Of a DNA stretch of 64,000 nucleotides, positions 1 to 64,000 are shown in pieces. The stretch is from contig BCGQ01000006.1 in the NCBI GenBank assembly GCA_001599355.1, positions 496,001 to 560,000 of the forward strand, read 5' to 3'. Origin of the DNA: Nakazawaea peltata. Taxonomy: Eukaryota > Ascomycota > Pichiomycetes > Alaninales > Pachysolenaceae. The notes beneath the pieces were generated by a model, which saw only the letters and a list, made by a program, of their open reading frames with translations, ran no database searches and was not told the DNA's origin. The stretch's first letter is position 1. The number at the start of each line of letters is the position of its first letter. Both the position numbers and the translations under genes were made by a program.

Positions 1-326
1 TCACCTGCAGACTTGGGTGTCGTCCGTCGTGTCATTTGTTTCTCAGGCCGATGCATGATCTCTGATGACACAAGTAACATGAACGAGGGGCCGTATGCCC
101 TAGTTATTTTGTGGGGACGAATCAGAAAACAATGTCACAGTTCTCAATTAGTGCTAATTAGGTTTTATATTTTTTTTTTTTGGTATCCCCTTGTGAAATA
201 TAAATTCTAGCGATATTGCCCTATTTACATATCATATCCTCAATTTCAACAGTTAATACCAAGTATTAAGACTCGCTAATTAATACCTGTCTAACAGAAA
301 ATAAATATAAAAAATACTTGCACAAG
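1..326. other. Left edge and HGT1 upstream region
   Basis: No gene is supported here. A short open frame near the left edge begins with TTG and looks like noise. The stretch carries a poly-T run near 170-181 and becomes AT-rich towards the transporter start, as expected for a yeast promoter and leader. I see no clear TATA box. Confidence 0.6.
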
Positions 327-1943
327 ATGAGAGGTAAAGGTACTAATCGTTTGTCAGACTACTACGACAAGTGGCCAAAAACATATAATATTTACTCTAT
401 CGCTGCTATTGCTACCGTTGGAGGTTTATTGTTCGGTTTCGATATTTCCTCTGTTTCTTCTTTTGTTTCTCAAAAGGACTATGTTGAGTTTTTCCACCAT
501 CCTTCCAGTCTTGCCCAAGGTGGTATTACCCTGGCCATGGCTGGAGGTTCGTTCGTTGCTTCTTTGATCAACCCATTTATCACTGATCCTTTAGGTCGTC
601 GTGTTTCGATGCAGTTGGCTTCTTTGTTATGGATGATTGGTCTGCTGGTCCAGAGTTCTTCTAGAAACCAAGCCCAGTTGATTATCGGTCGTTTCATTTC
701 TGGTTTGGGTATCGGTGTTCTGACATCTACCATTCCTTCTTACTGTTCTGAGGTTGCTCCAAAGCGTAGCAGAGGTTTGATTGGATGTCTTTTCCAATGG
801 GCTGTCGCTTGGGGTATCATGATCATGTTCTTCATTGGTTATGGTTGTTCTCAAATTGTCGGAACTGCCTCTTTCAGAACTGCTTGGGCTCTTCAAATTG
901 TCCCAGGTTTGCTTTTGTTCTTCGGTATTGTTTTCTTGCCTGAATCTCCTCGTTGGTTGGCTAACCATGGTAGATGGGATGAGCTGGAGTACATCGTTGG
1001 ACAAGTTAATGCTAAGGGTGACATGACTAACAAAGATGTCATCATTGAATTGGAAGAAATCAAAGAGCAGGTTCTCATTGATGAACAATCCGGTGCCGTT
1101 TCCTACTTAGAATTATTCAACAAGAGAAACATTACCAGAACTATGGTTGGTGTTTCTGCTCAAACGTGGCAACAATTATGTGGTATGAACGTTATGATGT
1201 ACTATATCGTTTATATTTTCGAGATGGCTGGTGTCACTGGTAACACTAACTTGGTTGCTTCTTCTATTCAATACGTCTTGATGACTGTTATGACTGTTCC
1301 ATCTTTCTTCTTGATCGACAGAATCGGTAGAAGACCATTGTTATTGATCGGTAGTGTTCTTATGTGTACCTGGTTGTTTGCCGTCGCTGGTTTGTTGGCC
1401 AACTACTCGTACCCAGTTAGTGATGTCGATGGTAACTCCAACATCACTATTCTGATTCCAACTTCAAGTAAGGCTGCCTCCCATGCCGTTATTGCTTGTT
1501 CATACCTTTTCGTTTGTTCTTTCTCTCCAACATGGGGTCCAGTTATTTGGTTGTACAACTCTGAGATTTTCCCAACTGTTCAAAGAGCCAAGGCAAACGG
1601 TCTTACAACTGCCACCAACTGGATTTTCAACTTTGCTTTGGCCATGTTCGTCCCATCTCTGTTCAAGAACATTACTTGGAAGACTTATATCATCTTTGGT
1701 GTTTTCTGTGTCTTCATGACTTTCCAAGTCTACTTCACCTTCCCAGAGACCAAGGGTAAGACCTTGGAAGAGATCACTCAAATTTGGGACGAGAAGATTC
1801 CAGCTTGGAAATCTGCTTCTTATGTTCCAGAAATGCCAGTCGGTCTCGACGACGACAAGGAGACAACTCAGCACAAGGAAGATGCTTCTTCTATCGAATC
1901 CAATGCCGAGGACAACGAGAAGCCTACTGCTCAAAATGTCTAA
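327..1943 (+). CDS. HGT1: High-affinity hexose (glucose) transporter, MFS sugar porter
   Basis: Plasma-membrane glucose/H+ or facilitated sugar uptake protein of the major facilitator superfamily, 538 residues, the usual size. The chosen start is the ATG at 327; an upstream in-frame TTG at 318 is not a credible start. Twelve membrane spans are visible, with sugar-porter signatures DPLGRR after span 2, PESPRWL before the central loop, DRIGRRP in the second half and PETKGKTLEEI near the C-terminus. The segment WQQLCGMNVMMYYIVYIF matches, from memory, Kluyveromyces lactis Hgt1 closely. CTG codons at 642, 645 and 1659 give MIG-AA-VQSS and FVPS-A-FKN, where the family has Ala. The tail is acidic and hydrophilic. 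Function is inferred from family; the exact sugar is not proven. Confidence 0.93.
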   Translation: MRGKGTNRLSDYYDKWPKTYNIYSIAAIATVGGLLFGFDISSVSSFVSQKDYVEFFHHPSSLAQGGITLAMAGGSFVASLINPFITDPLGRRVSMQLASLLWMIGLLVQSSSRNQAQLIIGRFISGLGIGVLTSTIPSYCSEVAPKRSRGLIGCLFQWAVAWGIMIMFFIGYGCSQIVGTASFRTAWALQIVPGLLLFFGIVFLPESPRWLANHGRWDELEYIVGQVNAKGDMTNKDVIIELEEIKEQVLIDEQSGAVSYLELFNKRNITRTMVGVSAQTWQQLCGMNVMMYYIVYIFEMAGVTGNTNLVASSIQYVLMTVMTVPSFFLIDRIGRRPLLLIGSVLMCTWLFAVAGLLANYSYPVSDVDGNSNITILIPTSSKAASHAVIACSYLFVCSFSPTWGPVIWLYNSEIFPTVQRAKANGLTTATNWIFNFALAMFVPSLFKNITWKTYIIFGVFCVFMTFQVYFTFPETKGKTLEEITQIWDEKIPAWKSASYVPEMPVGLDDDKETTQHKEDASSIESNAEDNEKPTAQNV

Positions 1944-2232
1944 TGGGATTCAACTTGTTCAATTGATTTTTTAGTATCCCCTGTGGTCCTCTTCTTAGTC
2001 ACGCTTAAGAATCACCCCCAATTTGATCTCCTAATTGGGTATTTTGTCGCGCACCATGCAACTTTTTCTCCCCCTAAGAGACGATGAGCAGAAATGTTCA
2101 GGGCTTGAAGGGGACTGGAGGTTTATATGGGTATATAAAATAATATACGATGAAGTTGGAAACTACATATATCAAATTCTACGTAGAAGTGTATTAATAT
2201 TGATTCTATTTTATTGTGACCAGCACATTTTC

Positions 2233-3195: not shown

Positions 3196-4782
3196 ATGTC
3201 ATCATTTGGTATCCCTCAGATGGACCAGATGATGTCTTCGAATCAACAGCGCCTGCTGCTGCTGGCGCTGCTGCTGGTTCTGGATTTACAACAGTCACAA
3301 CTGGACGCCTCGTCGATAATCGCCCATCAATTACAACATCAAAATGGGAATCTGCCTCCCGACTCACTGCTGGTGCTGCTGGTTCTGCATCAGGTTCTGC
3401 TGGCTCAGCTGCTGCTGGCCCATCGCAATCAAGATCTGACTGGTTCAAGGGACCCATCTCCCACCGTCAATGGTCTGTCTCCACGATCTCTGGATGATCT
3501 GCCAGATATCAAATCTGATGATGTTGTCGAAGACACAAAGAATTCTAGGTATGTAAGCAGAAAACCATACACTGAAGAGGAAGTGTTTGCATTGATCGAT
3601 CTGTTCGCCAAATTCTCCTCGAATGGGTTGAATTTGAAGCAGAGGTTTACAAAGAATGGGCTGGCCAAGACTTTGAATTCTCTTATTGCTGAAGAAATGT
3701 GCCTGAGATTCCCGAATTCTTTGAAAGTGTTCGATAAGGAGAATATCCGTAAGAAGTTGGATGAGATTAGGATCGAGTACATGGTCTTCAGATACTTATT
3801 ATACAAGAGTTCAGGGTTTGGATGGTTGGTAAGTGAGGGAAGATTTAATATGGAATATTCAAACTTGGATTTCTACAGGACTCAATATTTGGAAATGGGA
3901 GGTCAATTGAATGGTAAATCTGATACGTTCAAGAAGTTGATGAAACATGGTAACTTCTATCTTTATCATTATCATGAATTGATTGGAAGGAACACTCATT
4001 TTGGTCTTGAATTTGATAAGAACCATGCTCAGTCTGTTGTCAGTATGGAGAATGATATGATACCACCACAACAACTGCCGTCGCCTCCTCTGTCTAATGG
4101 AGCAACACTGAGATCTCCAACTCATGGACGTCAAAGGCAACCAAAGACAAATAATATGTCACCTAATTCCGCAGTTGGTACATCAGTTAACCCACTGAAT
4201 ATCCCAGCTCAACAACAAGCCAATGGAAATGGTGTAGTGAATGTTGGTAAGATGTCTAAACAGCAACAACAACAGCAAGCCCTGGCTCTGGCTCAACAAC
4301 TGCAGCAACTGCAAGTGCTGGCTCTGGCTCAACAACAGCTGCTGCAACAACAGGCTCAAGCCCAAGCTCAAGCCCAAGCTCAAGCCCAAGCTCAAGCCCA
4401 AGCTCAAGCCCAAGCACAAGCACAAGCACAAGCCCAAGCTCAAGCGCAACAACAACAGGCCCTACAACAAGCTCTGAAAAGATCATTCACAAATGCCTTT
4501 GATTATAACAGAATCTCGGCAGCGGCAGCCCTGGCCGTAGCATCAAACGATCGTCCTCCGACTCACCATCAACCTCCACCTATCCCATCTCATTTCCCAA
4601 CCTCGACCTTAGAGGATGAGCTATTGATGGAATTCGCAATGCAATTGAACGCAGATGAACCAAACGTGTTCAAATTCAACAAAATTTGTGAGTTGATCGA
4701 GAAATATCGCGTAGTGAGAAGGCTCCTACTCTCGAGTAATTACGATTACGAATATAAAAAGAGATGCTTGAGGCAATTCTAA
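3196..4782 (+). CDS. Myb/SANT-like DNA-binding protein with Gln-Ala repeat tract
   Basis: Probable transcription regulator of 528 residues. The ATG at 3196 gives MSSFGIPQMDQMM; the longer frame begins with GTG. Residues about 121-245 resemble a Myb/SANT-like domain (Myb_DNA-bind_3 type), with the acidic-aromatic opening KPYTEEEVFALIDLF, a basic middle helix and the family's closing KSSGFGW. Residues 386-417 are sixteen perfect Gln-Ala pairs, flanked by Q/A-rich sequence. The N-terminal 100 residues are dense in CTG; read as Leu they form false hydrophobic runs, read as Ala they form a low-complexity Ala/Gln/Ser linker that fits the rest of the protein. A basic ending, KKRCLRQF, closes it. DNA binding is inferred from the domain; targets and exact orthologue are unknown to me. 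Confidence 0.75.
   Translation: MSSFGIPQMDQMMSSNQQRLLLLALLLVLDLQQSQLDASSIIAHQLQHQNGNLPPDSLLVLLVLHQVLLAQLLLAHRNQDLTGSRDPSPTVNGLSPRSLDDLPDIKSDDVVEDTKNSRYVSRKPYTEEEVFALIDLFAKFSSNGLNLKQRFTKNGLAKTLNSLIAEEMCLRFPNSLKVFDKENIRKKLDEIRIEYMVFRYLLYKSSGFGWLVSEGRFNMEYSNLDFYRTQYLEMGGQLNGKSDTFKKLMKHGNFYLYHYHELIGRNTHFGLEFDKNHAQSVVSMENDMIPPQQLPSPPLSNGATLRSPTHGRQRQPKTNNMSPNSAVGTSVNPLNIPAQQQANGNGVVNVGKMSKQQQQQQALALAQQLQQLQVLALAQQQLLQQQAQAQAQAQAQAQAQAQAQAQAQAQAQAQAQAQQQQALQQALKRSFTNAFDYNRISAAAALAVASNDRPPTHHQPPPIPSHFPTSTLEDELLMEFAMQLNADEPNVFKFNKICELIEKYRVVRRLLLSSNYDYEYKKRCLRQF
4351..4446 (+). repeat. CAR-GCN hexanucleotide repeat coding for (Gln-Ala)16
   Basis: An almost perfect array of CAA/CAG alternating with GCT/GCC/GCA/GCG, in frame within the Myb-like gene, encodes sixteen Gln-Ala pairs. 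Upstream CTG codons at matching alternate positions (CTG-GCT and CAA-CTG) fit the same Gln/Ala pattern only if CTG is Ala. Such arrays are length-variable by slippage. Confidence 0.9.
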
Positions 4783-7083: not shown

Positions 7084-8475
7084 TTATTTATCATCATTAA
7101 AAGCTTGTCCCATAACATGTTTCTCTCTTTCACTCTTGAATGGAATAGAACCTTTCTTAGAATGTCTTCTTTCGTTGTTCTCTCTTCTCTTAAGACTCTC
7201 GATCTCAATCCTCTTGATCTCAGCTGCCTTCTTAACCACAATTGGAACATGTCTGTGTCTCGAGATACGTTTGATTTCAGGCATGTTCTGGAATCTTTCT
7301 TTCAATTTCTCATCGTATTCCAATTTAGCTCTCATTCTAGACGATTTAGCACCAGATCTCTCACTCAGTTTAGATCTCCAAAGTCTTACATTTCCATCGT
7401 CAGATCCACTGAGAACATACTTGGAATCCATAGAAAACTTGACAACGAAGACATGTTGCATACGTTTTGTATGGTAAATATCACGAGAATGACCTTTTCT
7501 GACATCGAATAATCTGATGGTCTTATCATAGGATCCGGTGACGATTTCTTGACCAGTAGGAGAGAAATCAACGTCCATTACAGCGGAGACATGATCTTTG
7601 AATACATTGATCGATCTCTTCAAGTTACGCATATCCCAGTAGTAACAGTTATGATCTTCTGAAGCAGTGACAAAATTGAACAGTTCCATAGGATTCCACA
7701 GCACACAATTCGATCTTAAACTTGTCTTAACTTTTTGAGTAGGAGTATTTGTTCTCAAATCATACAATATTATACTGTTGTCAGAACCTGTAGACAGAAT
7801 GACGTCTGTCTCGGTCATATTGAACTTGACAGAGGTGACATTATCAGCACCCCAAGATAAGTTCGAGATAGGTTTAGATCTTTGCATATCCCATAATTCG
7901 ATTTCTGCACCACCAGTGACAAATGAACCATTAGATCTATGATGATCAACGGTCTTAAAAGCATGTTCTCCAATCCATGTCTTAACTAAACCTTTACTTG
8001 AGATGGCATCATGGTCGAAATCTTCTGAAATATTTTGTCCATAATTCGACTCATTTGAAACATCCCAAAGCTTAATAGTCTTATCATCTCCACTAGAAAG
8101 TAATCTGTTACTTTGTGGTGTCACTACTAACCCGGTGACCATGCCATAATGCAGTTTATATGAGTAAGTTTCTTCACGAGAGGTCAAATCCCAATACTTA
8201 ATGAACCCTTCACCATCTCCTGTGGCAGTCTTGTTGACCACTTTCATGTTCTTCAGAATCAGATACACTCCGTCTCTATGACCACGTCCCAATTGGCCAA
8301 TAAATGGCTGGGCAAACATCCTTTCCATCTTAGTGGCATTTAACAGTTTGGTGTATTCACGAGCCCTTTCGAAGGGGTGTAAGGAGGGGTCCAAATTCCT
8401 GGGCAACAGTGATTCCTGGGTATTTCTGACCGGCACATAAGTGTCGGAGGATCTACTGATCGTTTTAATCTTCAT
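7084..8475 (-). CDS. SOF1: Sof1, WD40 protein of the U3 snoRNP / SSU processome
   Basis: Nucleolar 18S rRNA-processing factor, 463 residues (S. cerevisiae Sof1 is 489). The N-terminus MKIKTISRSSDTYVPVR and the following NLDPSLHPFERAREY are hallmarks of the Sof1/DCAF13 family. Seven WD-type repeats run through residues about 60-370; clear ones end in IKLWDVS, IELWDMQ, IILYDLR, YYWDMR, IRLFDVR and VRLWRSK. A highly basic tail (residues 375-463) is typical and contains ERFQNMPEIKRISRHRHVP. It shares a 115-bp divergent promoter with the 27K-like gene; that promoter holds RRPE-like A/T elements expected for ribosome-biogenesis genes. Confidence 0.95.
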   Translation of the reverse strand: MKIKTISRSSDTYVPVRNTQESLLPRNLDPSLHPFERAREYTKLLNATKMERMFAQPFIGQLGRGHRDGVYLILKNMKVVNKTATGDGEGFIKYWDLTSREETYSYKLHYGMVTGLVVTPQSNRLLSSGDDKTIKLWDVSNESNYGQNISEDFDHDAISSKGLVKTWIGEHAFKTVDHHRSNGSFVTGGAEIELWDMQRSKPISNLSWGADNVTSVKFNMTETDVILSTGSDNSIILYDLRTNTPTQKVKTSLRSNCVLWNPMELFNFVTASEDHNCYYWDMRNLKRSINVFKDHVSAVMDVDFSPTGQEIVTGSYDKTIRLFDVRKGHSRDIYHTKRMQHVFVVKFSMDSKYVLSGSDDGNVRLWRSKLSERSGAKSSRMRAKLEYDEKLKERFQNMPEIKRISRHRHVPIVVKKAAEIKRIEIESLKRRENNERRHSKKGSIPFKSEREKHVMGQAFNDDK

Positions 8476-10921: not shown

Positions 10922-12202
10922 ATGCCTATTCATATCCTTGGAACTTTGATAGTAGAAGGGACAGATGGAATCCCCGGTTGGGATTATATCAAAACTTATG
11001 TCCCGCCTTTAGTCGCCTTAGTGGCGCTGAAGTTGTACTTTGGTGGAGTGGCCAATACTTGGGAGCGTGATTTGCATGGGAAAGTGTATTTGATGACCGG
11101 AGCTACTTCGGGACTTGGCCGTCTGTTGCTGTTGGAGTTACTGAAACGTGGATCTCAGTTGATTTTCTTGACTTCCCAGTCCCTGGAGAAAAACCCATGG
11201 TTAGTCGAGTTCGTAGACGATATTAGAGAGAAGAGTGATAATATTCTTATATATTCTGAGGTTTGTGACTTGAATTCGTTATACAGCATTAGAAAATTCC
11301 TGACTAAGTGGTTGGATAATAGTCCTCCTAGGAGATTGGATGGTGTTATTTGTCTTGCTGGTGAGAGTTTACCTTCTGGTTATGATAGACAGCTTTCTGA
11401 AGATGGAGTAGAGAGACATATGGCGATCAATTATTTGGGTCATTATCATTTGTTGACTTTATTATCGCCTCTGTTGAGGGTTCAACCTCTGGATAGAGAT
11501 GTTTTTGTCTTGTTAAACACATGTAATTCACAACTGATTGGTGATGTTAACAGTAAAGATTTGTTATGGAATGAGAGAAAATATCCTTCAAGACAACCTT
11601 GGAAAGTCTTTGGTACATCTAAGTTGATGTTAAGTATGTTTGGACTTGAATTTCAGAAAAGATTACTTCAAGAACCTAGAAAAGATGGTCTGCCATCTAA
11701 GGTAAGAGTAGAGATGATCAATCCTGGATTTATGAGATCACCTTCCACTAGAAGAGTGTTGAGTTTTGGTTCCATCTTCGGTTTACTCTTGTATTTAATT
11801 TTATATCCTATTTGGTTTGTATTTTTGAAGACTTGTGAGCAGGGCTCTCAAACTTTCCTTCATGTCTTGCTGAACCCTGTTTACCAAGAATTAAGAGGTG
11901 GTAACTTCCTTAATAACAATAGCATTTATAAACCACTGAGGAAAGAATTGAATGATGACCAATTATTGAAGGAAGTTTATGATCTGACAGCCAAGGAGAT
12001 TGAAATATTGGAGAAACATTCTCTGATTCAAAGAAATAAGTTGAAGAAGAAGAGTAAAATTGAGGAATTGGATAGTGAAGAACCTGATCATAGAGTTAAC
12101 GATGCTGTTCCATTATTCCCTGATGGAAATACGAAATCCACTGCCACGTCAACAGTAACAGCAAAGAAGAGAACTACTAAAAAGAAGAGTAAAAAGGCTT
12201 AA
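10922..12202 (+). CDS. ENV9: Env9-like short-chain dehydrogenase, membrane-anchored
   Basis: Oxidoreductase of the SDR superfamily, 426 residues; S. cerevisiae Env9 is a lipid-droplet protein linked to vacuole morphology. A hydrophobic stretch at residues about 27-42 anchors it. The nucleotide-binding motif is TGATSGLGR, followed with CTG as Ala by A-L-A-LEL-A-KRGSQ, the standard SDR helix. NYLGHYH and NTCNSQ follow. The expected YxxxK reads F230-G-T-S-K234, so the catalytic Tyr is replaced by Phe (codon TTT at 11609), which questions normal reductase chemistry. A second hydrophobic segment lies at about 277-300, and the tail from about 375 is Lys-rich and longer than I recall for Env9. It converges on the aldo-keto reductase gene. 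Confidence 0.8.
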   Translation: MPIHILGTLIVEGTDGIPGWDYIKTYVPPLVALVALKLYFGGVANTWERDLHGKVYLMTGATSGLGRLLLLELLKRGSQLIFLTSQSLEKNPWLVEFVDDIREKSDNILIYSEVCDLNSLYSIRKFLTKWLDNSPPRRLDGVICLAGESLPSGYDRQLSEDGVERHMAINYLGHYHLLTLLSPLLRVQPLDRDVFVLLNTCNSQLIGDVNSKDLLWNERKYPSRQPWKVFGTSKLMLSMFGLEFQKRLLQEPRKDGLPSKVRVEMINPGFMRSPSTRRVLSFGSIFGLLLYLILYPIWFVFLKTCEQGSQTFLHVLLNPVYQELRGGNFLNNNSIYKPLRKELNDDQLLKEVYDLTAKEIEILEKHSLIQRNKLKKKSKIEELDSEEPDHRVNDAVPLFPDGNTKSTATSTVTAKKRTTKKKSKKA

Positions 12203-12267: not shown

Positions 12268-13140
12268 TTAAGGCAGAGAAGCAATTGGATCCCACCAAGC
12301 AGCACATGGCTCATAAGCTTCGTCATGAGTCAAGAAATCAATATCCTCTTGCGACATCTCAAATTGGTCCAGAGCCAAGTTCTCAACCATTCTACTTTCA
12401 GTAACAGTCTTTGGCAAAGTAATAAATCCCTTCGGAAGTGACCAGTTGATAAGAATTTGGCCTGGAGTGACATTGTACTTCTTAGCAAGCAGAACCAAAT
12501 CTGGGTCACCAAGCTTGATTCCTCTAGTCAAAGGTGAATAAGCTTGGAGCAGGATATCTTTGGATCTACAATACTCGACCAAATCTTTACGAGTTAACCA
12601 TGGGTGTAATTCAATTTGGTTGACAGCTGGTTTGATCTTGTAACCTTCCCAATTAAGTAACAATTCAATATGTCTTTCGGCAAAATTGGAAACACCAATG
12701 GATCTGATATTACCGGAGGCTACTTGGTCTTGAATCAGTGCATAACTCCACAAAATAACATCGTTGTTAGGTAATGGAGCATGGACTAAGTACAAGTCAA
12801 TATAACCAAGGTATTCTTTAACACGGTCAATAGATTTTTGGACCTCAGATTTGGCGCTTTCGGCATCGGTGATGTCCTGGAATCTAACTTTGGAGGTGTA
12901 GAAAATATCAGAACGCTTAATCTCTGGGTGTGATTTCAAGAAGTCACTGATTCCCTTAGCTGTCTCTTCTTCATTGTTATAAAATTGAGCAGAGTCGATA
13001 TGTCTGTATCCCTTTTCTAACAGCTTGTAGACAACGTCCGAGGTACTTTCGGTCAGAGTTTCAAAAACTCCCAAACCAATAGCTGGGATGGAGAAACCAG
13101 AGTTCAATTTGATCAAAGCGTTTGGAGTAATTTTTACCAT
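12268..13140 (-). CDS. Aldo-keto reductase (YJR096W / YDL124W type)
   Basis: NADPH-dependent aldo-keto reductase of 290 residues, the normal length for a single TIM-barrel AKR. The catalytic tetrad is intact: D49 and Y54 in HIDSAQFYNN, K84 in YTSK, H120 in LVHAP. The cofactor-side motif LPKTVTESR near residue 240 and the family signature GVSNFAERHIELLL are present. From memory the protein follows yeast YJR096W over its whole length, including the end DEAYEP. A TATAAATA box sits 60 bases upstream of the ATG, suggesting inducible expression. The natural substrate cannot be read from sequence; xylose or 2-methylbutyraldehyde-type activities are known in relatives. Confidence 0.9.
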   Translation of the reverse strand: MVKITPNALIKLNSGFSIPAIGLGVFETLTESTSDVVYKLLEKGYRHIDSAQFYNNEEETAKGISDFLKSHPEIKRSDIFYTSKVRFQDITDAESAKSEVQKSIDRVKEYLGYIDLYLVHAPLPNNDVILWSYALIQDQVASGNIRSIGVSNFAERHIELLLNWEGYKIKPAVNQIELHPWLTRKDLVEYCRSKDILLQAYSPLTRGIKLGDPDLVLLAKKYNVTPGQILINWSLPKGFITLPKTVTESRMVENLALDQFEMSQEDIDFLTHDEAYEPCAAWWDPIASLP

Positions 13141-14332: not shown

Positions 14333-16858
14333 ATGTCTGAAGCTTCTGATCCTCCTCAAGAGCAATCCTCATCCATGTCGACATCCGCTGCCCCGGCTAA
14401 GATGTCGTCTTTATCCAAATTAATCAATGAACAAAAGCAGGACAACAAGCCGGTGACCAAACCATCCAACTTGACTTTAAATTTGAATGAAGCTGCCAAC
14501 GGCTCCTCCTCGAGTGACCAGATCATCACCACCACCGTCTCCATAGAAGGCGTTTCACCCTCAGAAGAAGATATCGACCCAACCGACGGCGGTAACATTA
14601 TAAAAATGCGTGAAGGTGATAGTGAGGAGGAAGACAGTCCCTTGGGTGTTGTCATTCCTTCAAGGGCTGGTGACGGTTCATCTGCTAACGGCGCTCGTCA
14701 AAACTCGGCCGCTCCTCCAATTAGACCCCCAATTTCTCCAAGATTTGTCCGTCACCAATCGGTTTCTTCTTTCGGCGGAGAATACAGCAGATCTTTATCA
14801 TCATCGATCCCATATTCGGCACCTGGTGGTCGTAACTCCAATTCTGGTGCCCTGAATGGCAACGGAAACGGCTCTAACAGTGGTTCCTACAATAACTCGT
14901 ACATGCCAAACCTTTCCAATGGTGCGCCAATTCAAAGTATTAACATTTCTTCACCAAACATCACCTCTTTGAACGATATCGAACCAAGATTTGTCATCTC
15001 CAAACAAAAAATAGCCCAAGTTCACCTGGCCAATGCTGCAGAGAAGGAGAAAGAGAAATTGCAACTGATGAACCACCATCTTCCTCCAAGCTCATCTTCG
15101 TTGAGTAGATCTTCGTCATATTCTAGCATGTCTGGGTTCTTTTCGAGATCCAGAAAGTCATCGGTGGTGACTGGCTTCACAGCTACCGAGTTGACTTCGC
15201 CTACTCTGGCTTACTCCAATTCATTCCAGTCATCTTCCATGACTAATGGTACTAGTGATCATTACGGACATAGCCCTTCATCTACATCTTCTCAAGAATC
15301 TGGAGGTCAAATCCATCCTCTTTCCACTAGACATTCTTCTATGGCCGATTTGAAGAGATTTTTCAAAAGAAACACTCTGTATTCTTCATCTCCTGCTCGT
15401 ACTTCCCAGTTATCAATGGGAATCAAGCAACTGCTGCAACAACAGCCATCACCTTCTGGTTCTCAGCAACCAACTCCAACCACTTCAGCAGCTCAACAAA
15501 TTCCACTGTCTTCGGGATCTGCCTCATCTTCAAATGGTGTCGTGTACAATACTAATGGTAATGGAATCGTGTACAATAACTCATCCACTTCATTATCCAA
15601 CCAAGCAGGTGTTATTCAAGTCCCATCTTCCTCGGCTACTTCCTCAAGAAGAAACACTTACTATGCCAGCAACCCAACTGTATCCACAAGTTATGGATCC
15701 CTGATCAGTCAGCCTTTCACTATGTCGGTTGGTGGGAATAACACCCCTCAAATTCCATTTTCCAAGAGATATGGAAAGTTTGGAGAAAACTTGGGTGCTG
15801 GAGCTGGTGGATCTGTTAAATTGGTCAAACGTCTTGCCGATAAGAAGGTGTTTGCCGTCAAAGAATTCAGAGCTAAATATAACCACGAGACAAAGAGAGA
15901 CTATACTAAAAAGATCACAGCAGAATACTGTGTTGGGTCCACTTTGAAGCACCCAAATATTATCGAAACCGTCGAGATCTCATATGAAAATGAACGTGTA
16001 TTACAAGTTATGGAATACTGTGACTATGATTTGTTTGCAATTGTCATGTCAAATAAAATGACCACCGAAGAAGTCAATTGTTGTTTCAAACAAATTCTTA
16101 ACGGTATCAATTACTTACATTCCATGGGACTTCTGCATCGTGACTTGAAGTTGGATAACTGTGTTGTTGCTAAGAATGGTATTGTAAAGATTATTGATTT
16201 TGGATCGGCAGTAGTATTCAACTACCCTCTCTCGAACACCTTGATTGAGGCCCAAGGTATCGTTGGATCTGATCCTTATTTAGCCCCAGAAGTATGTGTA
16301 TTTAACAAATATGACCCAAGACCAGTCGATGTTTGGTCACTGCTGATTATTTATTGTTGCATGGTGTTGAAAAAGTTCCCATGGAAGGTTCCAAAACTCA
16401 CGGATCTGAGTTTCAAGATGTTCTCAACAAGAGAGGAAGGTGCTACTTTGAATGAATTATTGAAACGTACCCCATCCCCACCTCTGTATGATGAGGCTAC
16501 TTCGGACTCATTTACCAGTATGAAAAAAGATATGATGGCTACTATCGATGATGAGCCTGAGAAGGAGAAGAGTGAATCGGATGGTAAGGCACACACATCT
16601 CAATTGACTGGTCTGAAGAGATTATTGAATGCCTTGCCAGAGGTTTGTAGACCATTGATCGGTAGAATGGTGGATCTTGCTCCACTGTGTCGTATCACGA
16701 TCGAAGATTGTTTCAATGACCCATGGTTAAGTTCACTTGAAATGTGTGATATTGTCGAAGGTAAACTCATTTGCCTGTCTGATCATGAACATACTCAAGT
16801 CGACCAATCCGTTGCTCATATCGCAATGTTAGAGAAGAACAAGCCTAAAAAGAAATAA
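14333..16858 (+). CDS. Hal5/Sat4-type serine/threonine protein kinase
   Basis: Protein kinase of 841 residues from the fungal Hal5/Sat4/Npr1 group, which regulates nutrient and potassium transporters at the plasma membrane. Residues 1-470 are a long Ser/Thr/Asn-rich regulatory region. The kinase domain starts near 476 with KRYGKFGENLGAGAGGSV, then FAVKEF (ATP lysine), H602-R-D604 in HRDLKLDN, D622-F-G and YLAPEV. CTG at 16133 gives HSMGL-A-HRDLKLDN, and CTG CTG at 16340-16345 gives VDVWS-AA-IIYCCM; both match the family only with Ala. The insert before LPEVCRPLIGRM and the segment APACRITIEDC are also family-like. Length is nearer Hal5 (855) than Sat4 (603), so the exact paralogue is left open. 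Confidence 0.9.
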   Translation: MSEASDPPQEQSSSMSTSAAPAKMSSLSKLINEQKQDNKPVTKPSNLTLNLNEAANGSSSSDQIITTTVSIEGVSPSEEDIDPTDGGNIIKMREGDSEEEDSPLGVVIPSRAGDGSSANGARQNSAAPPIRPPISPRFVRHQSVSSFGGEYSRSLSSSIPYSAPGGRNSNSGALNGNGNGSNSGSYNNSYMPNLSNGAPIQSINISSPNITSLNDIEPRFVISKQKIAQVHLANAAEKEKEKLQLMNHHLPPSSSSLSRSSSYSSMSGFFSRSRKSSVVTGFTATELTSPTLAYSNSFQSSSMTNGTSDHYGHSPSSTSSQESGGQIHPLSTRHSSMADLKRFFKRNTLYSSSPARTSQLSMGIKQLLQQQPSPSGSQQPTPTTSAAQQIPLSSGSASSSNGVVYNTNGNGIVYNNSSTSLSNQAGVIQVPSSSATSSRRNTYYASNPTVSTSYGSLISQPFTMSVGGNNTPQIPFSKRYGKFGENLGAGAGGSVKLVKRLADKKVFAVKEFRAKYNHETKRDYTKKITAEYCVGSTLKHPNIIETVEISYENERVLQVMEYCDYDLFAIVMSNKMTTEEVNCCFKQILNGINYLHSMGLLHRDLKLDNCVVAKNGIVKIIDFGSAVVFNYPLSNTLIEAQGIVGSDPYLAPEVCVFNKYDPRPVDVWSLLIIYCCMVLKKFPWKVPKLTDLSFKMFSTREEGATLNELLKRTPSPPLYDEATSDSFTSMKKDMMATIDDEPEKEKSESDGKAHTSQLTGLKRLLNALPEVCRPLIGRMVDLAPLCRITIEDCFNDPWLSSLEMCDIVEGKLICLSDHEHTQVDQSVAHIAMLEKNKPKKK

Positions 16859-16941: not shown

Positions 16942-17382
16942 TCATGGGATAACGTTGATGCCCATACTTTTGGCAGTGTTTATCACGCTCTTGCAAATAT
17001 CTTCCAATTCTAATTTAGCATGTCTTGAATCACTTTGCTTGATCTTAGCGATCTCATAAATATGCTTTAAAGAGAGGTCCAGTACTGTTGGCTTTCCGGC
17101 ACCTACTTCGGCGGCACCTTTTTCTAATTGCAGCAGACGTAATAGCAAGTACCCAGTAGGTGGTGATTTCACTTCGAATGTGAAAGAACGATCTGGTCTT
17201 ACTGTGATTAACGCTGGGATAGGTACTCCTGGCTCGTAAGAGGCGGTTCTGGCGTTGAATTCTTTACAGAAATCAATCAGTTTTACACCTTTGGAACCCA
17301 AAGCAGGACCAACTGGTGGAGTAGGAGCAGCTTGACCGGCACCAACAATTAATTTGATCAAAGTATTCTTGGTGGCTGACAT
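16942..17382 (-). CDS. MRPL19: Mitochondrial large-subunit ribosomal protein uL11m
   Basis: Mitochondrial ribosomal protein of the L11 family, 146 residues (yeast MrpL19 is 158), part of the GTPase-associated centre. Nearly the whole protein is L11: [20 protein letters not shown] at residues 11-30, [10 protein letters not shown], then [19 protein letters not shown] at residues 83 and 84 gives YLLLR-AA-QLEKGA, lining up with the bacterial LLKKAAG, and CTG at residue 35 gives GVK-A-IDFC, as I recall for MrpL19. No long presequence is seen, which is normal because yeast L11m has an internal or very short targeting signal. It converges on the kinase gene (83 bases between). Confidence 0.95.
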
Positions 17383-40687: not shown

Positions 40688-40695
40688 ATACAAAG

Positions 40696-49656: not shown

Positions 49657-52275
49657 ATGTCTTTGGAAGAGAATAAGAAGTGGGATATCATTAAAACTGA
49701 TAACGGGAAGCAGCGTATCTCACAACTGTGTGATCGTTGTTGTACCAAGAAGATTAAATGTGATGGTAAGCCGGGAGCTTGTTCCAATTGCTTGAAGATT
49801 GGTTTTTTCTGTAAAACAACTGATAAATTGAAAAGATCTTCTTTCCCAAAGGGTTATACAAAGACTTTGGAGAAACAGGTGATTGAGTTGGAATTGGAGA
49901 ATAACAAAATAAAGATGGAATTGGAGGAGATGAAGAGACGTTTACAGAACTCATCTGGTATTATGCAACCAATTACTGCTAGTAATCCTATTTTGGATGA
50001 TATTAATTCTGTTATGAATGCTTCCGATAGGGATGATGATTTCTTCAACTTCAGTACTGATTTCTTCAATACTGAGGAGCAATTACAACTCATTCCTAAG
50101 CAGGAATTGCATCATGATTATCTTGGATTTGACCAGTTGAAGCAAACCAATTTTGCCGATTACTTGGCCCTGTCGCATAATATTGAAATCGCGGTCGATA
50201 AGTCGCAAATTCTGGAGGAGTCACGTGACTTCAACGAATTACTCCTCAAATATATCAAACCTCTCTTGAATAAAGATCCAAATATCAAGGATTCCTTGTT
50301 CAATGAGAATAAGATTGATAATTTGATCTCGAAATTCTTCAAGAATTTCAACAAATTGATCCCTATCTTGGATTTCAAGAAATTTTGCAATCAATATTTG
50401 AACTTTGTCAATAAATTTGATATTGAAAGCTTGAAATTACAAGGAGGTCAAGGATATAACTTCAACTCGGATGAGAGAGTGTTCATTTTAAAGTTGATGC
50501 TCATTGTAAAATTCAACTTCAATAACACATCCATATTTAACAAACCAAACTCGTTTGACTATATGATTTTCGATTTTTCGTCTTTCATGGAATGGGTCAA
50601 AGATATTAATTTTGTAAAACCGTCGATTGACAACCTTGAGCTCTTGTTATTGTTATTATCATATCTTTATCATTTTGAGATCCCATTTGAGACGGCTAAG
50701 ACTCTGAAGTATAACGATTGGTGCTACGAGTTGTTGTCTCTTTCTTTGCATTATATCAACTCTATGGGATTAAATATCAATAATGAGAATGTAATCAGCC
50801 CGGCCTCTGAAGACAAGGAATCTCTTATTACTTATCAGCTTATCAGGTTGAAATTGTACTGGAGTTTCAGAGTTTTGTTACGTTCCATTAAGATTGAATT
50901 TAACTACACTTTCAAGAATTTGAAGATGATGAAGGAGTTATTTAAACCTGATACTTTGGAGTCCGTTTATGTATTTGAGGATTCTTTAAAGTACACTTCT
51001 CATTTATTGAATTTGATCAAACTTATCCCTATCAATTTCACTGAATTGACGACATTTGAGAAGCAAAAAGTCGAGCTTGATTTGGATCAATGGTTTGAAC
51101 AATTCCAATCTTGCCTCAAAGATACTCCCGAGGATAAAATTGAAGAAGATACTACTCCATGGGAGTTACTGTCTATGTATTATTACTATAAATTTGCGAT
51201 CAACAAGTCTTGTGCTGCTGATATTATAGTTAATGGATATAAGAGATTATACCAAGTTATGAGTTATGTGAAGAAACCAAAGGTGTCTCGTGGCCGTAAA
51301 AAGAGAGGATATCATGAGATGATGGAGAAGTTAAAGCTGAACTCTAGTAATGGAAATGGAGAAGAAATCATTCGGATGATGAGTAAATTGGATTCTTTGA
51401 GTCAATATGAAGTTGACTTGATTAATGATCAGCTCAGTGGCATTTCTGCCGTCTTTATAAACTTATTAATGGTTGCATGTTTGCATGAGGTCAGTAGTAG
51501 ACCAGAATCAGCTTCAGAATTGAAAATCCATGATATTTACATGGTTTTAAATATTGGTCTTGCGGGCAAGACAGCATTACAACATCTGTTGCTTGAAGGA
51601 ATTGCTTCTAAATTTGATATTGTTCTTCCAGCATTGGTCATTTGTAAAGATGAGATTTCTCCTGTCAAGTCCGAGTGTTCTCCATTGTCAGTTACTTCAC
51701 CAAATGCCATCGCAAATTCGAAGACAATTGATATTTCGAAAGAATTCAATGATTTGCATGATTCTTTCATTATCCATGCTCCTGCTTCACCTACTAATTC
51801 CATACTGACTACGGCTACTAATTCTGAATTCTCTTATAACATGTCCAGAAATTCATCTATTTCGACTAATTCGATGTTCATGTCAAGAACACCTTCTTTG
51901 AAGCAACATGCTGTCGAAAGATCAAAGAAAATGAGACGTACTTCGTCTCTTGATGGCGTAGTTAGTGATGTAGATGACGATTTAGTCGAGGAAAATGGTG
52001 GTAAAGTAAGAGTTGAATCATTATTCAGTCATATGAATAGACTGTCTACGATGGCACCACCTTCGAGTCATCCTGTGGCCCAGATTTCCTCTCAAAATGA
52101 AAAGGATGTTCTGGAGACTGATATTTCTATGGATGTTACTCTGAATTTATCACCTCTGAAAATATTCAGAGAGGAAGACTCTATTAATTTAGGTTACTCG
52201 TCTCATTTCCAAATGTACAAGGATGATGATGATCTCTTACGTCTTAAGCAGCGTCTTTTAAATTTTAGCAAATAA
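49657..52275 (+). CDS. Cat8/Sip4-like Zn2Cys6 transcription factor
   Basis: Zinc-cluster factor of 872 residues. The cluster is C25-x2-C28-x6-C35-x6-C42-x2-C45-x6-C52. CTG at 49726 gives RISQ-A-CDRCC, and the following KIGFFCKTTDKLKRSSFPKG then YTKTLEKQVIELELEN matches the Cat8/Sip4 pattern (cluster, SDKL, PKGYTESLE, coiled coil) that activates gluconeogenic genes through CSRE sites. The fungal middle homology region is at about 215-530. The cluster is diverged: CDRCR is CDRCC and the usual GKRP is GKPG, so DNA specificity may differ. The C-terminal third is Ser/Asn-rich with a late acidic helix. Assignment to the Cat8/Sip4 group is by motif memory. Confidence 0.8.
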   Translation: MSLEENKKWDIIKTDNGKQRISQLCDRCCTKKIKCDGKPGACSNCLKIGFFCKTTDKLKRSSFPKGYTKTLEKQVIELELENNKIKMELEEMKRRLQNSSGIMQPITASNPILDDINSVMNASDRDDDFFNFSTDFFNTEEQLQLIPKQELHHDYLGFDQLKQTNFADYLALSHNIEIAVDKSQILEESRDFNELLLKYIKPLLNKDPNIKDSLFNENKIDNLISKFFKNFNKLIPILDFKKFCNQYLNFVNKFDIESLKLQGGQGYNFNSDERVFILKLMLIVKFNFNNTSIFNKPNSFDYMIFDFSSFMEWVKDINFVKPSIDNLELLLLLLSYLYHFEIPFETAKTLKYNDWCYELLSLSLHYINSMGLNINNENVISPASEDKESLITYQLIRLKLYWSFRVLLRSIKIEFNYTFKNLKMMKELFKPDTLESVYVFEDSLKYTSHLLNLIKLIPINFTELTTFEKQKVELDLDQWFEQFQSCLKDTPEDKIEEDTTPWELLSMYYYYKFAINKSCAADIIVNGYKRLYQVMSYVKKPKVSRGRKKRGYHEMMEKLKLNSSNGNGEEIIRMMSKLDSLSQYEVDLINDQLSGISAVFINLLMVACLHEVSSRPESASELKIHDIYMVLNIGLAGKTALQHLLLEGIASKFDIVLPALVICKDEISPVKSECSPLSVTSPNAIANSKTIDISKEFNDLHDSFIIHAPASPTNSILTTATNSEFSYNMSRNSSISTNSMFMSRTPSLKQHAVERSKKMRRTSSLDGVVSDVDDDLVEENGGKVRVESLFSHMNRLSTMAPPSSHPVAQISSQNEKDVLETDISMDVTLNLSPLKIFREEDSINLGYSSHFQMYKDDDDLLRLKQRLLNFSK

Positions 52276-53937: not shown

Positions 53938-55689
53938 ATGGGTTCACCAAGGTTGTCGAAGATTGTGATCTTATCGGTCACACTCTTGATCACTATGACG
54001 GTTTTCTATAACACCTTGATAAAATATGATGATGAGAGTTCTAGGGCCATTATCTCCAAGACCCAAACTACTATAAATAACATGGTCCCTGAGACTGTAA
54101 AGGGATCTCTTGGTTTTGGTTCAAAGAGTGGTTCCACTGCTGAGGATCAAACTGAAGAGATCAACACCTCTTTGAGAGCTTATGATTACGCTGATGTCAG
54201 AAATTTCACTGCTCAAGTTATGCATTTGGTTGATGAGTTCAGACCAAGAAAGAAGGCAGGAAAGAAACACGGTGAGGAGTGTACTTTGGAAACTTTGAGA
54301 ATTGATCCAGATTATGAGGGACCTGTCTATTCCAAGGATTACCTTTCCAAGTGTCTTATGATCAACTATGACACCTTTGAGGATTTGAAGGCCAAACATA
54401 AGAGCTTTGTCGACAACTTACCTTTGAGATTCCCACCAGGAATGTTCGAGGGAAGAGGTATTGTCATGGTTGGTGGTTCTAAGTATACTATGTTGGGATA
54501 CTTGGTGATCCGTATCTTGCGTGAGAGAGGTACAGAATTGCCTATCGAGGTGTTCATGCCTCCAGATGCTAGAGAAAACTACTACTGTGAGAACATCTTG
54601 CCTCAATACAATGCTAAATGTATTAGGTTGAACAGAATCATGGATCAAGAAAGAATTGATCAGTTGGATATCAAGGGATACCAATTGAAATCTTTACTGT
54701 TCATGCTGTCCAGTTTCGATGAGATGTTATATATTGATAGTGATAACTATCCTCTTTTCGATGTCGAGCCAATCTTTGAAGAGGCACCTTTCACCACCCA
54801 TGGAATGATTCTTTGGCCTGATTTCTGGAGACGTGCTACTTCGCCTCTGTTTTATGATATTGCAGGACTTGAGTTAGGTCCACAAGTAAGATTTGGAGTC
54901 GATACCGTCACCAACCCACTGATCTTCAAGATGATGGACTTGGATTTGGATTCTCAAGTAAGTATGCATGATAGAGAGAATGCCATTCCTGATGGAACTG
55001 GAGAAAGTTCGTGTATTTTCATGAAGAAAAACACCCATTTGAAGACCATGTTGTTAAGTATGTACTACAACGTATATGGACCAGAGAATTATTACTCCTT
55101 GCTTTCTCAAGACACTTTCGGAGAAGGTGATAAGGAAACTTTTGGAGCTCTGCTGGTTCTGGTTGGTGAGCCATATTGGCAAGTTAAGACCAGATCTCAA
55201 CCTGGTGGAGCTCTCTTACATACAGGTAAGAGACCAAGATCAACCACCATGTTGCAATACAACCCAATCACAGATTACAAGATTTACCAAGAATTATACG
55301 AGATGTTGCATTCAGCCAAACAAGATTCCTACGATAAATCAAGAGTCCCAGAGTACTATAACTCTCATAATAAGAACATCTCATTTGTGCATTACAATTT
55401 AGGAAAGTTGGAGCCTTTAGGTATGATCGGCTGGAACCGTAGATATGGGTATGACTTGACTGATATTGGATTTGATTTCGAGTTAAGAAACGTTGAGTTA
55501 ATGGTGGAAATGTTCTGTGCCCCAGAAGGAAGTGGTCGTGTCGAGTACGATTATATTGGTACTGAGGATAGACAGAAGGATCTGTGTAGGGAGAGTAAGA
55601 ATTTACGTGAGAGAATGTCCCTGACCAAAGATAAAGTTATCACCAATAAGCTGGACTTGGACAAATTGGAACCATTCTCTAACATTTGA
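53938..55689 (+). CDS. Mnn2/Mnn5-type alpha-1,2-mannosyltransferase (GT71), copy 1
   Basis: Golgi type II glycosyltransferase of 583 residues that adds alpha-1,2 mannose branches to N-glycan outer chains. A short cytosolic tail is followed by one membrane anchor (about 8-26). The luminal domain has CTLETLRIDPDYEGPVYSKD, GRGIVMVGGSKY, then KSL-A-FM-A-SSFDEMLYID with CTG as Ala. The metal-binding DxD is D267-S-D269 in YIDSDNYPLF. WPDFWRRATSPLFY and GEGDKETF are GT71 signatures, and an HYN block (FVHYNLGK) lies near 485. It is followed by a close paralogue in the same orientation. Mnn2 and Mnn5 cannot be separated from sequence alone. Confidence 0.88.
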   Translation: MGSPRLSKIVILSVTLLITMTVFYNTLIKYDDESSRAIISKTQTTINNMVPETVKGSLGFGSKSGSTAEDQTEEINTSLRAYDYADVRNFTAQVMHLVDEFRPRKKAGKKHGEECTLETLRIDPDYEGPVYSKDYLSKCLMINYDTFEDLKAKHKSFVDNLPLRFPPGMFEGRGIVMVGGSKYTMLGYLVIRILRERGTELPIEVFMPPDARENYYCENILPQYNAKCIRLNRIMDQERIDQLDIKGYQLKSLLFMLSSFDEMLYIDSDNYPLFDVEPIFEEAPFTTHGMILWPDFWRRATSPLFYDIAGLELGPQVRFGVDTVTNPLIFKMMDLDLDSQVSMHDRENAIPDGTGESSCIFMKKNTHLKTMLLSMYYNVYGPENYYSLLSQDTFGEGDKETFGALLVLVGEPYWQVKTRSQPGGALLHTGKRPRSTTMLQYNPITDYKIYQELYEMLHSAKQDSYDKSRVPEYYNSHNKNISFVHYNLGKLEPLGMIGWNRRYGYDLTDIGFDFELRNVELMVEMFCAPEGSGRVEYDYIGTEDRQKDLCRESKNLRERMSLTKDKVITNKLDLDKLEPFSNI

Positions 55690-60716: not shown

Positions 60717-61655
60717 CTACTCCTCACCACGTAAAGCTCTCATAACAGCAGGTCTTCTCATCATATGTTTTGTCCATTTATATACCTCTGGATATTCAAC
60801 CTTCAAATTAATACCAATCCGATCTACTACATTATTCCATGGTACAAAACTCAAATCCAGAATAGTCAGTCTATCTCCGACAAGCCATACAGGGTAATCG
60901 AAGTATCTGCTTTGAGACAATGGGGTCGTTCCAGCACTATACAGAGCCAGGTTCTCTGAATCTAATTCCATGATCAACAGCTCTCTTTTCTCCAGTAAAG
61001 TCATCTCGATCACTCCATAAACACGGCGTACCTCATCGGTGTATCTTTCAACGGCACTAGGAACACTTTGAGAATGGAAATAACGGAAATGCAACAGTTG
61101 CCCAATCATAGGAGCATGGCCACTTACTTGATAAAACAAAAATGAGTTGATTTTACTTTGCTCAGCAATATCATTAGACCAAATCTCACATTCTCCATTC
61201 TCTCGAAGATATTTAGATACAAGATATAACGTGATCAGCCCAGATTCCCAAATACTTGTCTGGCCATTTGAATGGTCGATCAACAGAGGTACACGAGCAT
61301 TTGGATTGATCTGGACAAATTCGGGAGCACGTTGTTCCCCCTGGTTGAAATCAAGAAACAAAGTATTGTAGTCGTAGTTCAATTCGGACAATATAATCAG
61401 TACTTTAAAACCATTGGGCAGCGAACGATGACTGAACAAGGTGAATCCGTCTTGTGGAATGTTATTGAAAAACTGTGAAATTCTAGATGACTGTTGAGGA
61501 TGCTGCTGTTGGAGTTGAGACTCCAACTGTTTACTGCTCTCTGAGCCTTCTCCTCCGCCATGCAAATGTACCGATCGTAAGCCAGCTGAGAGATTCGAAA
61601 TAGTACGCTGTTCTTGCTGTTGTTGTAGCACCTGATTGTTTATTAGGTTGGACAT
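60717..61655 (-). CDS. URE2: Ure2 nitrogen catabolite repression regulator (GST-like)
   Basis: GST-fold regulator that holds the GATA factor Gln3 in the cytoplasm under good nitrogen supply; in S. cerevisiae it forms the [URE3] prion. It has 312 residues (S. cerevisiae 354). The N-terminal 60 residues are Gln-rich (QQQQEQ, QLQQQHPQQ) but short and poor in Asn. The GST domain starts near 70 (GFTLFSHRSLPNGFKV). CTG codons at residues 140, 187, 221, 226, 236, 238 and 266 fall on Ala in the S. cerevisiae sequence as I recall it (SG-A-I, IGQ-A-LHFRYF, EN-A-A-A-YSAG); residue 263 falls on Leu. NVVDRIGINLK and HMMRRPAVMRALRGE are near-identical to yeast Ure2. Confidence 0.95.
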   Translation of the reverse strand: MSNLINNQVLQQQQEQRTISNLSAGLRSVHLHGGGEGSESSKQLESQLQQQHPQQSSRISQFFNNIPQDGFTLFSHRSLPNGFKVLIILSELNYDYNTLFLDFNQGEQRAPEFVQINPNARVPLLIDHSNGQTSIWESGLITLYLVSKYLRENGECEIWSNDIAEQSKINSFLFYQVSGHAPMIGQLLHFRYFHSQSVPSAVERYTDEVRRVYGVIEMTLLEKRELLIMELDSENLALYSAGTTPLSQSRYFDYPVWLVGDRLTILDLSFVPWNNVVDRIGINLKVEYPEVYKWTKHMMRRPAVMRALRGEE

Positions 61656-62519: not shown

Positions 62520-64000
62520 TTACAAAGGATCCGACTCGAATACCCACGACCCACTAACCGGATCATAACTAACAAACTTAGTGTTAGGAATATGCTTCAA
62601 TCTTCTAACATGTTTCTTAACTAATTCATGCTTAGGATCCAAGATGGGTTTATTGGTTTCTCTTTCAATCGGATAACAATTCTCTAAAGTGATCCTCTTA
62701 CGAACATTTAATCCTTCTCCCTTTCCTGGTTTAATGTCTTCATATGGATAAACTACCAGTTGTTTATTATCGATCCAACAAATTTCACTGATGATTTTCT
62801 CGAAAGAAGGCAATGAAGTCAAATCGACAGGGTCCAAAAATTCAATCTTACCTTGGTTTTCACGCCCAATGACGAAATTAGACACAGACTTAAGATCCAG
62901 AGGTGAGTAATTGTCAAGCTGCTTCTCGCTTGGTTCAAACCAATATCCTTGAGAATAAATATCCTGTTCAATATCCGAGTCTTGAGTCAGATCCAGACTT
63001 AAGATTTGATCCGATTTTCCATTTCCATTTTCTTTTTCTTGTAATAATTCTGGACTGGCACTTTCAGAACTACTCTTAATTTGTCTCTTTGGTGTGACCA
63101 ACCCATCATCACTTGAATCTGGTTCAATCTTAGTACTTGATTTACTCATAATAAGTTTCTTTAAATGCAGATCATCTGGTTGGAAAATAGATGAACTTAA
63201 AATCGCATCATTAACCTTTTTACTGTTAGTGTCTTTTGAAGAAGAACTAGAGGAAGACGATGACTGTTCTTCGTATGAACTAGCACTAACAATTGGAAGA
63301 GAAGTTGGAAGAATCAACTTCTTTTTATTACCGTTAGTAATATCTGCCAAACCACCCTTTGAACTAATCACACCAGAGTCATTGACTTGGAATAACGGTT
63401 TGTATTTCAACCTATAAAGAGAAGTCAAAGTGACCTTCTTCTTTGGACCCTTGGCAGGTCCGCTCAAAGGTGTAGCCACAGGTTGTAATTGACCGTTAGT
63501 TTGTTGAGGAGGCAGAGTGATGCTTGAGAATAACTGACTTGTTCCATATGGATTATTAGCCAGCAGTAATTGTTGTTGATTTGGTTGTTGTTGAGCTTGG
63601 GATTGACCACCAAGTTGTAAACTATTACCACCGAAGAGACCTCCTCCGGTATTCAATCCATTATTGGCATTGGTGGAACTAGTACCAAATAATCCACCAG
63701 AAGCAGCTGGCTTACTACCGAATAAACCGCCAGAATTGGCTGTAGAAGAATTGGTATTACCAAATAATGAACCAGATGTTCCAGAGGAAGCTCCATTGGA
63801 GGTAGTGTTACCGAACAAACTTCCTGAAGCGTTTGGTGCTTGAGTGGAACCACTGGAACCACCAAATAATCCACCAGGAGCGGCTGGTTTAGCTCCAAAT
63901 AAACCTCCAGACGTTCCACCGGAGGCACTACCGAATAAATTTCCAGAAGTTCCAGAAGCTTGAGCAGTTCCATTGGTAGCTCCGAACATTCCTCCAGAAG
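62520..64000 (-). CDS. GLFG nucleoporin (Nup100/Nup116/Nup98 family), 5' end outside window
   Basis: Nuclear pore FG-repeat protein; 493 codons are visible and the frame is open through the right edge, so the N-terminus lies outside. The part seen starts with GLFG-type repeats spaced by Ser/Thr/Gly/Asn linkers (GGLFGAKP, GGLFGGSS, GSLFGN), followed by a linker with a KKKVTLTSLYRL segment and a Ser-rich stretch. The C-terminal 155 residues match the Nup98 autoproteolytic fold: GYWFEPSEKQLDNYSPLDL, VIGRENQGKIEFLDPVDLT, RKRITLENCYPIER and FVSYDPVSGSWVF. It ends ESDPL without an HFS cleavage site, favouring Nup100/Nup116 over Nup145. Which of the two is undecided. Confidence 0.88.
   Translation of the reverse strand, partial: SGGMFGATNGTAQASGTSGNLFGSASGGTSGGLFGAKPAAPGGLFGGSSGSTQAPNASGSLFGNTTSNGASSGTSGSLFGNTNSSTANSGGLFGSKPAASGGLFGTSSTNANNGLNTGGGLFGGNSLQLGGQSQAQQQPNQQQLLLANNPYGTSQLFSSITLPPQQTNGQLQPVATPLSGPAKGPKKKVTLTSLYRLKYKPLFQVNDSGVISSKGGLADITNGNKKKLILPTSLPIVSASSYEEQSSSSSSSSSKDTNSKKVNDAILSSSIFQPDDLHLKKLIMSKSSTKIEPDSSDDGLVTPKRQIKSSSESASPELLQEKENGNGKSDQILSLDLTQDSDIEQDIYSQGYWFEPSEKQLDNYSPLDLKSVSNFVIGRENQGKIEFLDPVDLTSLPSFEKIISEICWIDNKQLVVYPYEDIKPGKGEGLNVRKRITLENCYPIERETNKPILDPKHELVKKHVRRLKHIPNTKFVSYDPVSGSWVFESDPL

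Follow-up and report, generated by a model that had tools for sequence, protein, structure and literature searches.

First described for Pachysolen in 2016, a nuclear code in which CUG specifies alanine (NCBI translation table 26) is now also known from Nakazawaea and Peterozyma (PMC5951914). According to this source, reassignment of one sense codon to another amino acid has been described in nuclear genomes only for CUG in budding yeasts, and CUG could go to alanine or serine because, alone among the aminoacyl-tRNA synthetases, those for alanine and serine do not depend on specific anticodon bases; in the alanine clade, the decoder is a tRNA with anticodon CAG derived by mutation of a tRNA-Ala gene. 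For the code-changing clades taken together, CUG is described there as relatively rare and found at poorly aligned sites. A Codetta survey of 462 yeast species (PMC8629427) gave a CUG meaning that fits the known clades in 453. In the NCBI taxonomy, the order Alaninales consists of one family, Pachysolenaceae. Here, we analysed the CTG codons of a 64,000-nucleotide window (the whole stretch, contig BCGQ01000006.1, positions 496,001 to 560,000), for which an initial annotation had proposed this code.

These data indicate that the window almost certainly stems from the nuclear genome of a budding yeast that translates CUG as alanine. As in the known CUG-Ala yeasts (Pachysolen, Nakazawaea and Peterozyma), CTG occupies alanine columns, is absent from conserved leucine columns and acts as a fifth alanine codon, and the remaining leucine codons are unchanged where this could be tested (TTA, TTG and CTT). 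The analysis is based on 36 gene models built under table 26, which cover 47,599 of the 64,000 bases and contain 15,869 codons, 376 of them CTG, with no internal stop. Two of these models begin upstream of an ATG (2233-2586 and, by 7 codons in the codon counts and column tests, that of the mitochondrial ribosomal protein uL11m) and the last one is truncated by the window end. Gene names lacking a Pfam or PDB match are those of the initial annotation or other putative assignments.

CTG was first masked as X in seven proteins, to which homologues from bacterial loci were then aligned with tblastn (ClpP, 80 homologues; Sps19-like, 30; uL11m, 27; alcohol dehydrogenase, 10; Ure2, 7; aldo-keto reductase, 4; hexose transporter, 1), with all 20 amino acids being scored. 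Over the resulting 52 CTG columns, alanine ranked top with a lead of 22.0 bits over serine, 30.5 over threonine and 50.1 over leucine. Masking each of the other codons in turn, a control that stands in for a Pfam control with another leucine codon read as alanine, recovered the codon's own amino acid for 46 of the 53 codons that had six or more columns. In the seven failures the deficit was 0.1 to 3.9 bits, and seven further codons had too few columns for this control. TTA, TTG and CTT were each inferred as leucine in this way and thus remain leucine, while for CTC leucine scored 0.4 bits under the best residue on only 7 columns. No sign of a meaning other than leucine was detected for CTA, for which evidence is thin with only three columns, one of them with leucine in 74 of 80 homologues. 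A majority residue was present in 31 of the 52 CTG columns, being alanine in 16, threonine and serine in 3 each, glycine and isoleucine in 2 each, and proline, valine, phenylalanine, tyrosine and leucine in one each.

In a second version, the alanine, leucine and serine codons were all masked and the best of these three residues was recorded for each column. The alanine/leucine/serine split of CTG (23/7/11, n=41) did not differ significantly from that of GCN (44/7/25, n=76; p 0.43), but it differed from that of the other leucine codons (7/90/15, n=112; p 9e-14) and from that of the serine codons (26/10/50, n=86; p 0.004). Columns with at least 80% alanine hold 10 CTG and 17 GCN codons. Those with at least 80% leucine hold 20 leucine codons (8 TTG, 7 TTA, 4 CTT and 1 CTA) and eight codons for other residues, and no CTG was found in the seven-protein bacterial alignments either in these columns or in those with at least 80% serine.

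Thirty of the 36 proteins were also scanned against Pfam three times, with CTG read as alanine, serine or leucine, the models at 2233-2586, 8591-9208, 20870-22045, 23770-24783, 45909-46856 and 62520-63998 being outside the scan; no Pfam family was found in the Gln/Ala-rich protein encoded at 3196-4782. Scores were summed over 36 domains, with one family per domain chosen by hand and overlapping families excluded. Alanine was the sole best reading in 29 of them, tied with serine in one and with both in another, and its summed lead amounted to 124.9 bits over serine and 235.9 over leucine. An ordinary leucine CUG whose fit to alanine would be due to chance could account for one domain score in which leucine is best (TPR_2), for the hexose transporter codon at 645 and in part for that at 1659, but it is already contradicted by the two bit deficits of leucine, by the conserved leucine columns devoid of CTG and by the mixing of CTG with GCN in the alanine runs of the Gln/Ala-rich protein, so that its probability is negligible. 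A second rival is the reading of CUG as serine (table 12), as in the CUG-Ser1 and CUG-Ser2 codes of Serinales and Ascoideales, which resemble the present one in having the same codon reassigned from leucine by the same kind of mechanism. Serine is the second-best amino acid in the 52-column test and the best in 4 of the 36 domain comparisons (by 0.1 to 1.2 bits), and its codons adjoin GCN as CTG does. Serine nonetheless also takes second place when GCT, GCC or GCA is masked, it lies opposite CTG at only 2 of the 39 sites tabulated with yeast-type orthologues (see below) and its conserved columns contain no CTG; unlike in the serine codes, it is rejected here by 124.9 bits in the domains and 22.0 bits in the columns, which makes a Ser1 or Ser2 affiliation barely credible.

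A third tabulation was made with yeast-type orthologues. Ten proteins with CTG masked were searched against PDB chains, and the four whose best chain was of yeast type (Ure2, Sof1, Ipi3 and eIF3g, all of which we take to be Saccharomyces cerevisiae chains) were tabulated, including two further aligned stretches of Ipi3 with six CTG sites, none on alanine. Opposite the 39 CTG sites were found alanine (18), threonine (4), leucine and glutamate (3 each), glutamine, serine, proline and cysteine (2 each), aspartate and valine (1 each) and one gap. In the same proteins, GCN fell on alanine at 34/62 sites, a share from that of CTG not significantly different (p 0.42), other leucine codons on leucine at 61/96 and serine codons on serine at 57/129. 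An ambiguous CUG, mostly alanine with a minor share of leucine or serine, might be suspected from the CTG codons found on leucine-like columns, such as residue 263 of Ure2 (in the best Ure2 chain) and residue 222 of the Sps19-like protein (leucine in 11/30), and from the somewhat higher frequency of such columns at CTG compared with GCN (7/41 vs 7/76, p 0.24; at the orthologue sites, 3/39 vs 3/62, p 0.67). Neither difference is significant, however, residue 263 is alanine in the two PcUre2p chains shown, and PMC8645108 reports more than 99% alanine at CUG in Pachysolen, so that ambiguity is extremely unlikely.

CTG was thus tabulated in three ways, on overlapping gene sets and with codon controls, and the outcome was alanine each time: alanine is ahead in the column test, in the Pfam sums and in the yeast-orthologue table, and CTG was not mostly on leucine or serine columns in any of them. 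This upholds the initial annotation both in its table 26 interpretation and in its placing of CTG on alanine columns over many genes; its mention of this code as known for Pachysolen and relatives also agrees with PMC5951914.

The individual sites are of unequal value, and the case rests on their summed evidence. All 13 coordinates that had been named are in-frame CTG codons of the named genes (most of them in Table 1). Those proposed in ClpP at 35303 and 35561 are decisive: together with 35153 and 35414, they encode residues 108, 194, 58 and 145, respectively, at which alanine occurs in 80, 77, 80 and 78 of 80 bacterial ClpP and in 5/5 of the PDB alignments shown, the other CTG (residues 10, 88, 98 and 211) lying opposite Ala/Gly/Ser, Pro/Cys or variable residues. 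Also decisive is the tandem pair at residues 83-84 of uL11m: of 27 bacterial L11, 22 have alanine at the first position of the pair and 15 at the second. Residue 35 faces isoleucine in 21 and alanine in 5 of these, residue 101 glycine in 15 and alanine in 10, and in the best PDB chain, compared by eye only, residues 35 and 83 are on alanine, 84 on leucine and 101 on glycine. For the Sps19-like protein, only 43850 proved decisive (alanine in 26/30 bacterial homologues), while 43814 (serine 15, alanine 14) and 43832 (glycine 23) do not discriminate. The statement that neither leucine nor serine fits goes too far for single sites, since at Nnr1 39165 alanine barely exceeds leucine in the Pfam score (128.1 vs 127.9) and the Hal5/Sat4-like kinase, in which the codons are CTG as described, hardly separates alanine from serine. 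In the hexose transporter (HGT1), two of the proposed alanines are opposed by the PDB sugar-transporter alignments shown, none of them fungal, with leucine in all four at 645 and methionine in three and leucine in one at 1659. The Whi3, Env9, Ubp10 and zinc-cluster examples lean to alanine by Pfam score. Finally, the count of seven alanines out of eight CTG given for Ure2 had to be corrected, as this gene has 11 CTG, of which 10 face alanine and one, residue 263, faces leucine in the best chain.

Several observations weigh against alanine. An alanine majority is lacking in 36 of the 52 CTG columns. Among the orthologues, the high proportions of Ure2 (10/11) and Sof1 (7/9) are not shared by Ipi3 (1/12) and eIF3g (Tif35, 0/7). 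The four domain scores led by serine are those of 5814-7001, 44485-45588, 56641-58428 and Fungal_trans of 25069-27873, and leucine is favoured by 3.6 bits in the TPR gene at 35629-36666 (TPR_2, 51.1 vs 47.5). Some of the overlapping families excluded from the sum also prefer leucine, namely MFS_1 in the transporter (94.3 vs 91.4), PK_Tyr_Ser-Thr in the kinase (84.6 vs 83.8), Say1_Mug180 at 58642-59391 (27.5 vs 25.4) and several TPR models, or serine, namely THOC3 in Ipi3 (70.8 vs 63.9). Low-level misincorporation at CUG may also be compatible with the data. Lastly, no tRNA gene was detected in the 64-kb window by ARAGORN or by Rfam at the gathering threshold, so that the CUG decoder was not seen. 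By analogy with the literature, a tRNA-Ala whose anticodon has mutated to CAG would read CUG and would be charged by alanyl-tRNA synthetase, for which the anticodon bases are not needed, the ancestral tRNA-Leu(CAG) presumably having been lost.

With CUG read as alanine, the most probable affiliation of the species is with the Alaninales. The G+C content of the window (0.37 to 0.41 in 8-kb steps) is near the 42.3% given for Nakazawaea ambrosiae in PMC10106607, which is only a hint for this placement. A yeast outside this order would represent a second, independent reassignment of CUG from leucine to alanine; this is very unlikely, as membership of the known clade accounts for the data without any further assumption. 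The CUG-Ala code itself is already known and is not new.

The usage of CTG differs from the general published statement. CTG represents 0.0237 of the codons and 376 of 1106 alanine codons (34%), ahead of GCT (360), GCC (205), GCA (126) and GCG (39). When two Gln/Ala-rich genes are excluded, it represents 0.0209 of the codons and 307 of 958 alanine codons, behind GCT (324), indicating that its first rank is due to these two genes while its share of about one third is independent of them. Within Pfam domains, whose ranges were set by hand from the Pfam output with some being merged, CTG makes up 38.2% of the alanine codons (166/435) against 29.6% outside (141/477) over 29 genes, with a Fisher p of 0.006 that is only nominal because codons are not independent. 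In contrast to the relatively rare CUG at poorly aligned sites described in PMC5951914 for the code-changing clades together, CTG thus accounts here for about one third of the alanines and is frequent in conserved domains. The mean CUG frequency in three GAL genes of code-changed species is given as 0.003 to 0.006 (PMC8084343), and CTG avoidance is stated for Serinales and Ascoideales, usage in Alaninales having been computed too (PMC11540330). Since the published averages span all reassigned clades, high CTG usage in Alaninales may already be known; our claim is limited to its departure from the general description, and no report of such high usage was found among titles and abstract beginnings of the open-licence literature.

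CTG reaches 2.37% in frame versus 1.14% of intergenic triplets (both strands), and a general liking for G-ending codons does not account for this excess, since GCG is depleted in frame (0.25% versus 0.51%). Two base changes separate CTG from GCG, and more are needed from any other GCN codon; the occurrence of CTG at near-invariant alanines would thus imply double changes or passage through valine (GTG) or proline (CCG). Although no GCN codon leads to CTG by one base change, the share of CTG in columns with at least 80% alanine (10/27) is about that found elsewhere (34%). CTG thus seems to have been adopted generally and not merely tolerated at loose sites, a pattern that bears on how a codon reassignment ends. 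In this lineage, CUG may even have become an alanine codon favoured in translation, a tentative suggestion to which we give less than an even chance, yet a better one than to a second independent reassignment. CTG adjoins GCN more often than other leucine codons do (43/376 vs 79/1304, p 0.0007; p 0.011 without the two Gln/Ala-rich genes), which is weak evidence because serine codons adjoin GCN equally (178/1576). No fixed context, such as a preceding CAG, was seen among the eight codons that most often come before CTG, of which CTG itself and CAA are the most frequent. With the two Gln/Ala-rich genes excluded, the next residue is serine in 13.8% of cases after GCN and 6.2% after CTG, and lysine in 6.9% and 10.7%, respectively, a difference to which the greater frequency of CTG inside domains may contribute.

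In practice, since CUG is alanine here, the genes of this yeast have to be predicted with table 26. The standard code would misassign 2.4% of the residues, including a near-invariant alanine located two residues before a serine of ClpP that we take to be the active-site serine.

Table 1. Genes of the window with their CTG codons and the support for each reading (A/S/L, Pfam bit scores with CTG as alanine, serine or leucine)
Gene	Position	Strand	CTG codons	Scores and remarks
Hexose transporter	327..1943	+	7 (642, 645, 1659)	Sugar_tr A/S/L 374.9/370.9/364.8
Gln/Ala-rich	3196..4782	+	41	Alanine runs mix CTG with GCT, GCC, GCG
SOF1 orthologue	7084..8475	-	9	Best PDB chain Ala 7/9, Gln 1, Cys 1
Env9-like short-chain dehydrogenase/reductase (SDR)	10922..12202	+	14	adh_short A/S/L 51.5/44.8/40.1
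Aldo-keto reductase	12268..13140	-	7	A/S/L 131.7/125.0/119.8
Hal5/Sat4-like kinase	14333..16858	+	17 (16133, 16340, 16343)	Pkinase A/S/L 166.8/166.1/163.9, weak preference
Mitochondrial uL11m	16942..17382	-	4	Ribosomal_L11 A/S/L 84.5/77.2/76.3
Ubp10-like ubiquitin hydrolase	18536..20656	-	12	UCH A/S/L 210.7/209.2/203.3
Whi3-like RRM	31356..33296	-	28	RRM_1 A/S/L 44.8/36.4/31.6
ClpP protease subunit	34982..35620	+	8	A/S/L 238.9/228.7/219.1
Psy2 / PP4R3	40696..42990	+	18	PP4R3 A/S/L 463.8/453.3/447.9
Sps19-like dienoyl-CoA reductase / SDR	43289..44161	+	12	adh_short_C2 A/S/L 143.6/133.6/125.7
SUR7/PalI family	47678..48727	+	10	A/S/L 165.2/154.3/155.0
Zinc-cluster factor	49657..52275	+	12 (49726 adjoins first Cys)	Zn_clus A/S/L 33.1/31.5/29.9
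Mannosyl_trans3 glycosyltransferase	53938..55689	+	10	A/S/L 229.4/221.9/214.5
Ure2-like	60717..61655	-	11	GST_N A/S/L 67.0/61.1/61.2; GST_C 56.3/48.8/48.5

The alanine runs of the Gln/Ala-rich gene include four CTG, one GCG and three CTG in succession, and also GCC CTG GCT CTG GCT. Within the same gene, a (Gln-Ala)n tract (4354-4449) contains the 12-base tandem repeat GCTCAAGCCCAA, which uses GCN, while the alanine runs upstream of the repeat use CTG too.

CTA is scarce, with 26 of the 1304 leucine codons other than CTG and 0.16% in frame versus 1.46% of intergenic triplets. This would fit a weak tRNA-Leu(UAG), otherwise a possible competitor for CUG; CTA is described as generally unpreferred across Saccharomycotina (PMC11540330).

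The clpP gene is complete in this budding yeast; S. cerevisiae, to our knowledge, has no ClpP, and a literature search found no published account of ClpP loss in yeast. Among the 80 bacterial ClpP loci listed, the first 24 belong to Wolbachia and other Alphaproteobacteria (50-62% identity), as expected of a mitochondrial type.

Elsewhere in the window, the Mannosyl_trans3 gene of Table 1 has as its neighbour a second gene of this family (56641-58428), also on the forward strand, and the two likely result from a tandem duplication. In two convergent gene pairs, 58642-59391 (+) with 59388-60242 (-) and 20870-22045 (+) with 22042-23478 (-), the two genes share four bases where their 3' ends meet.

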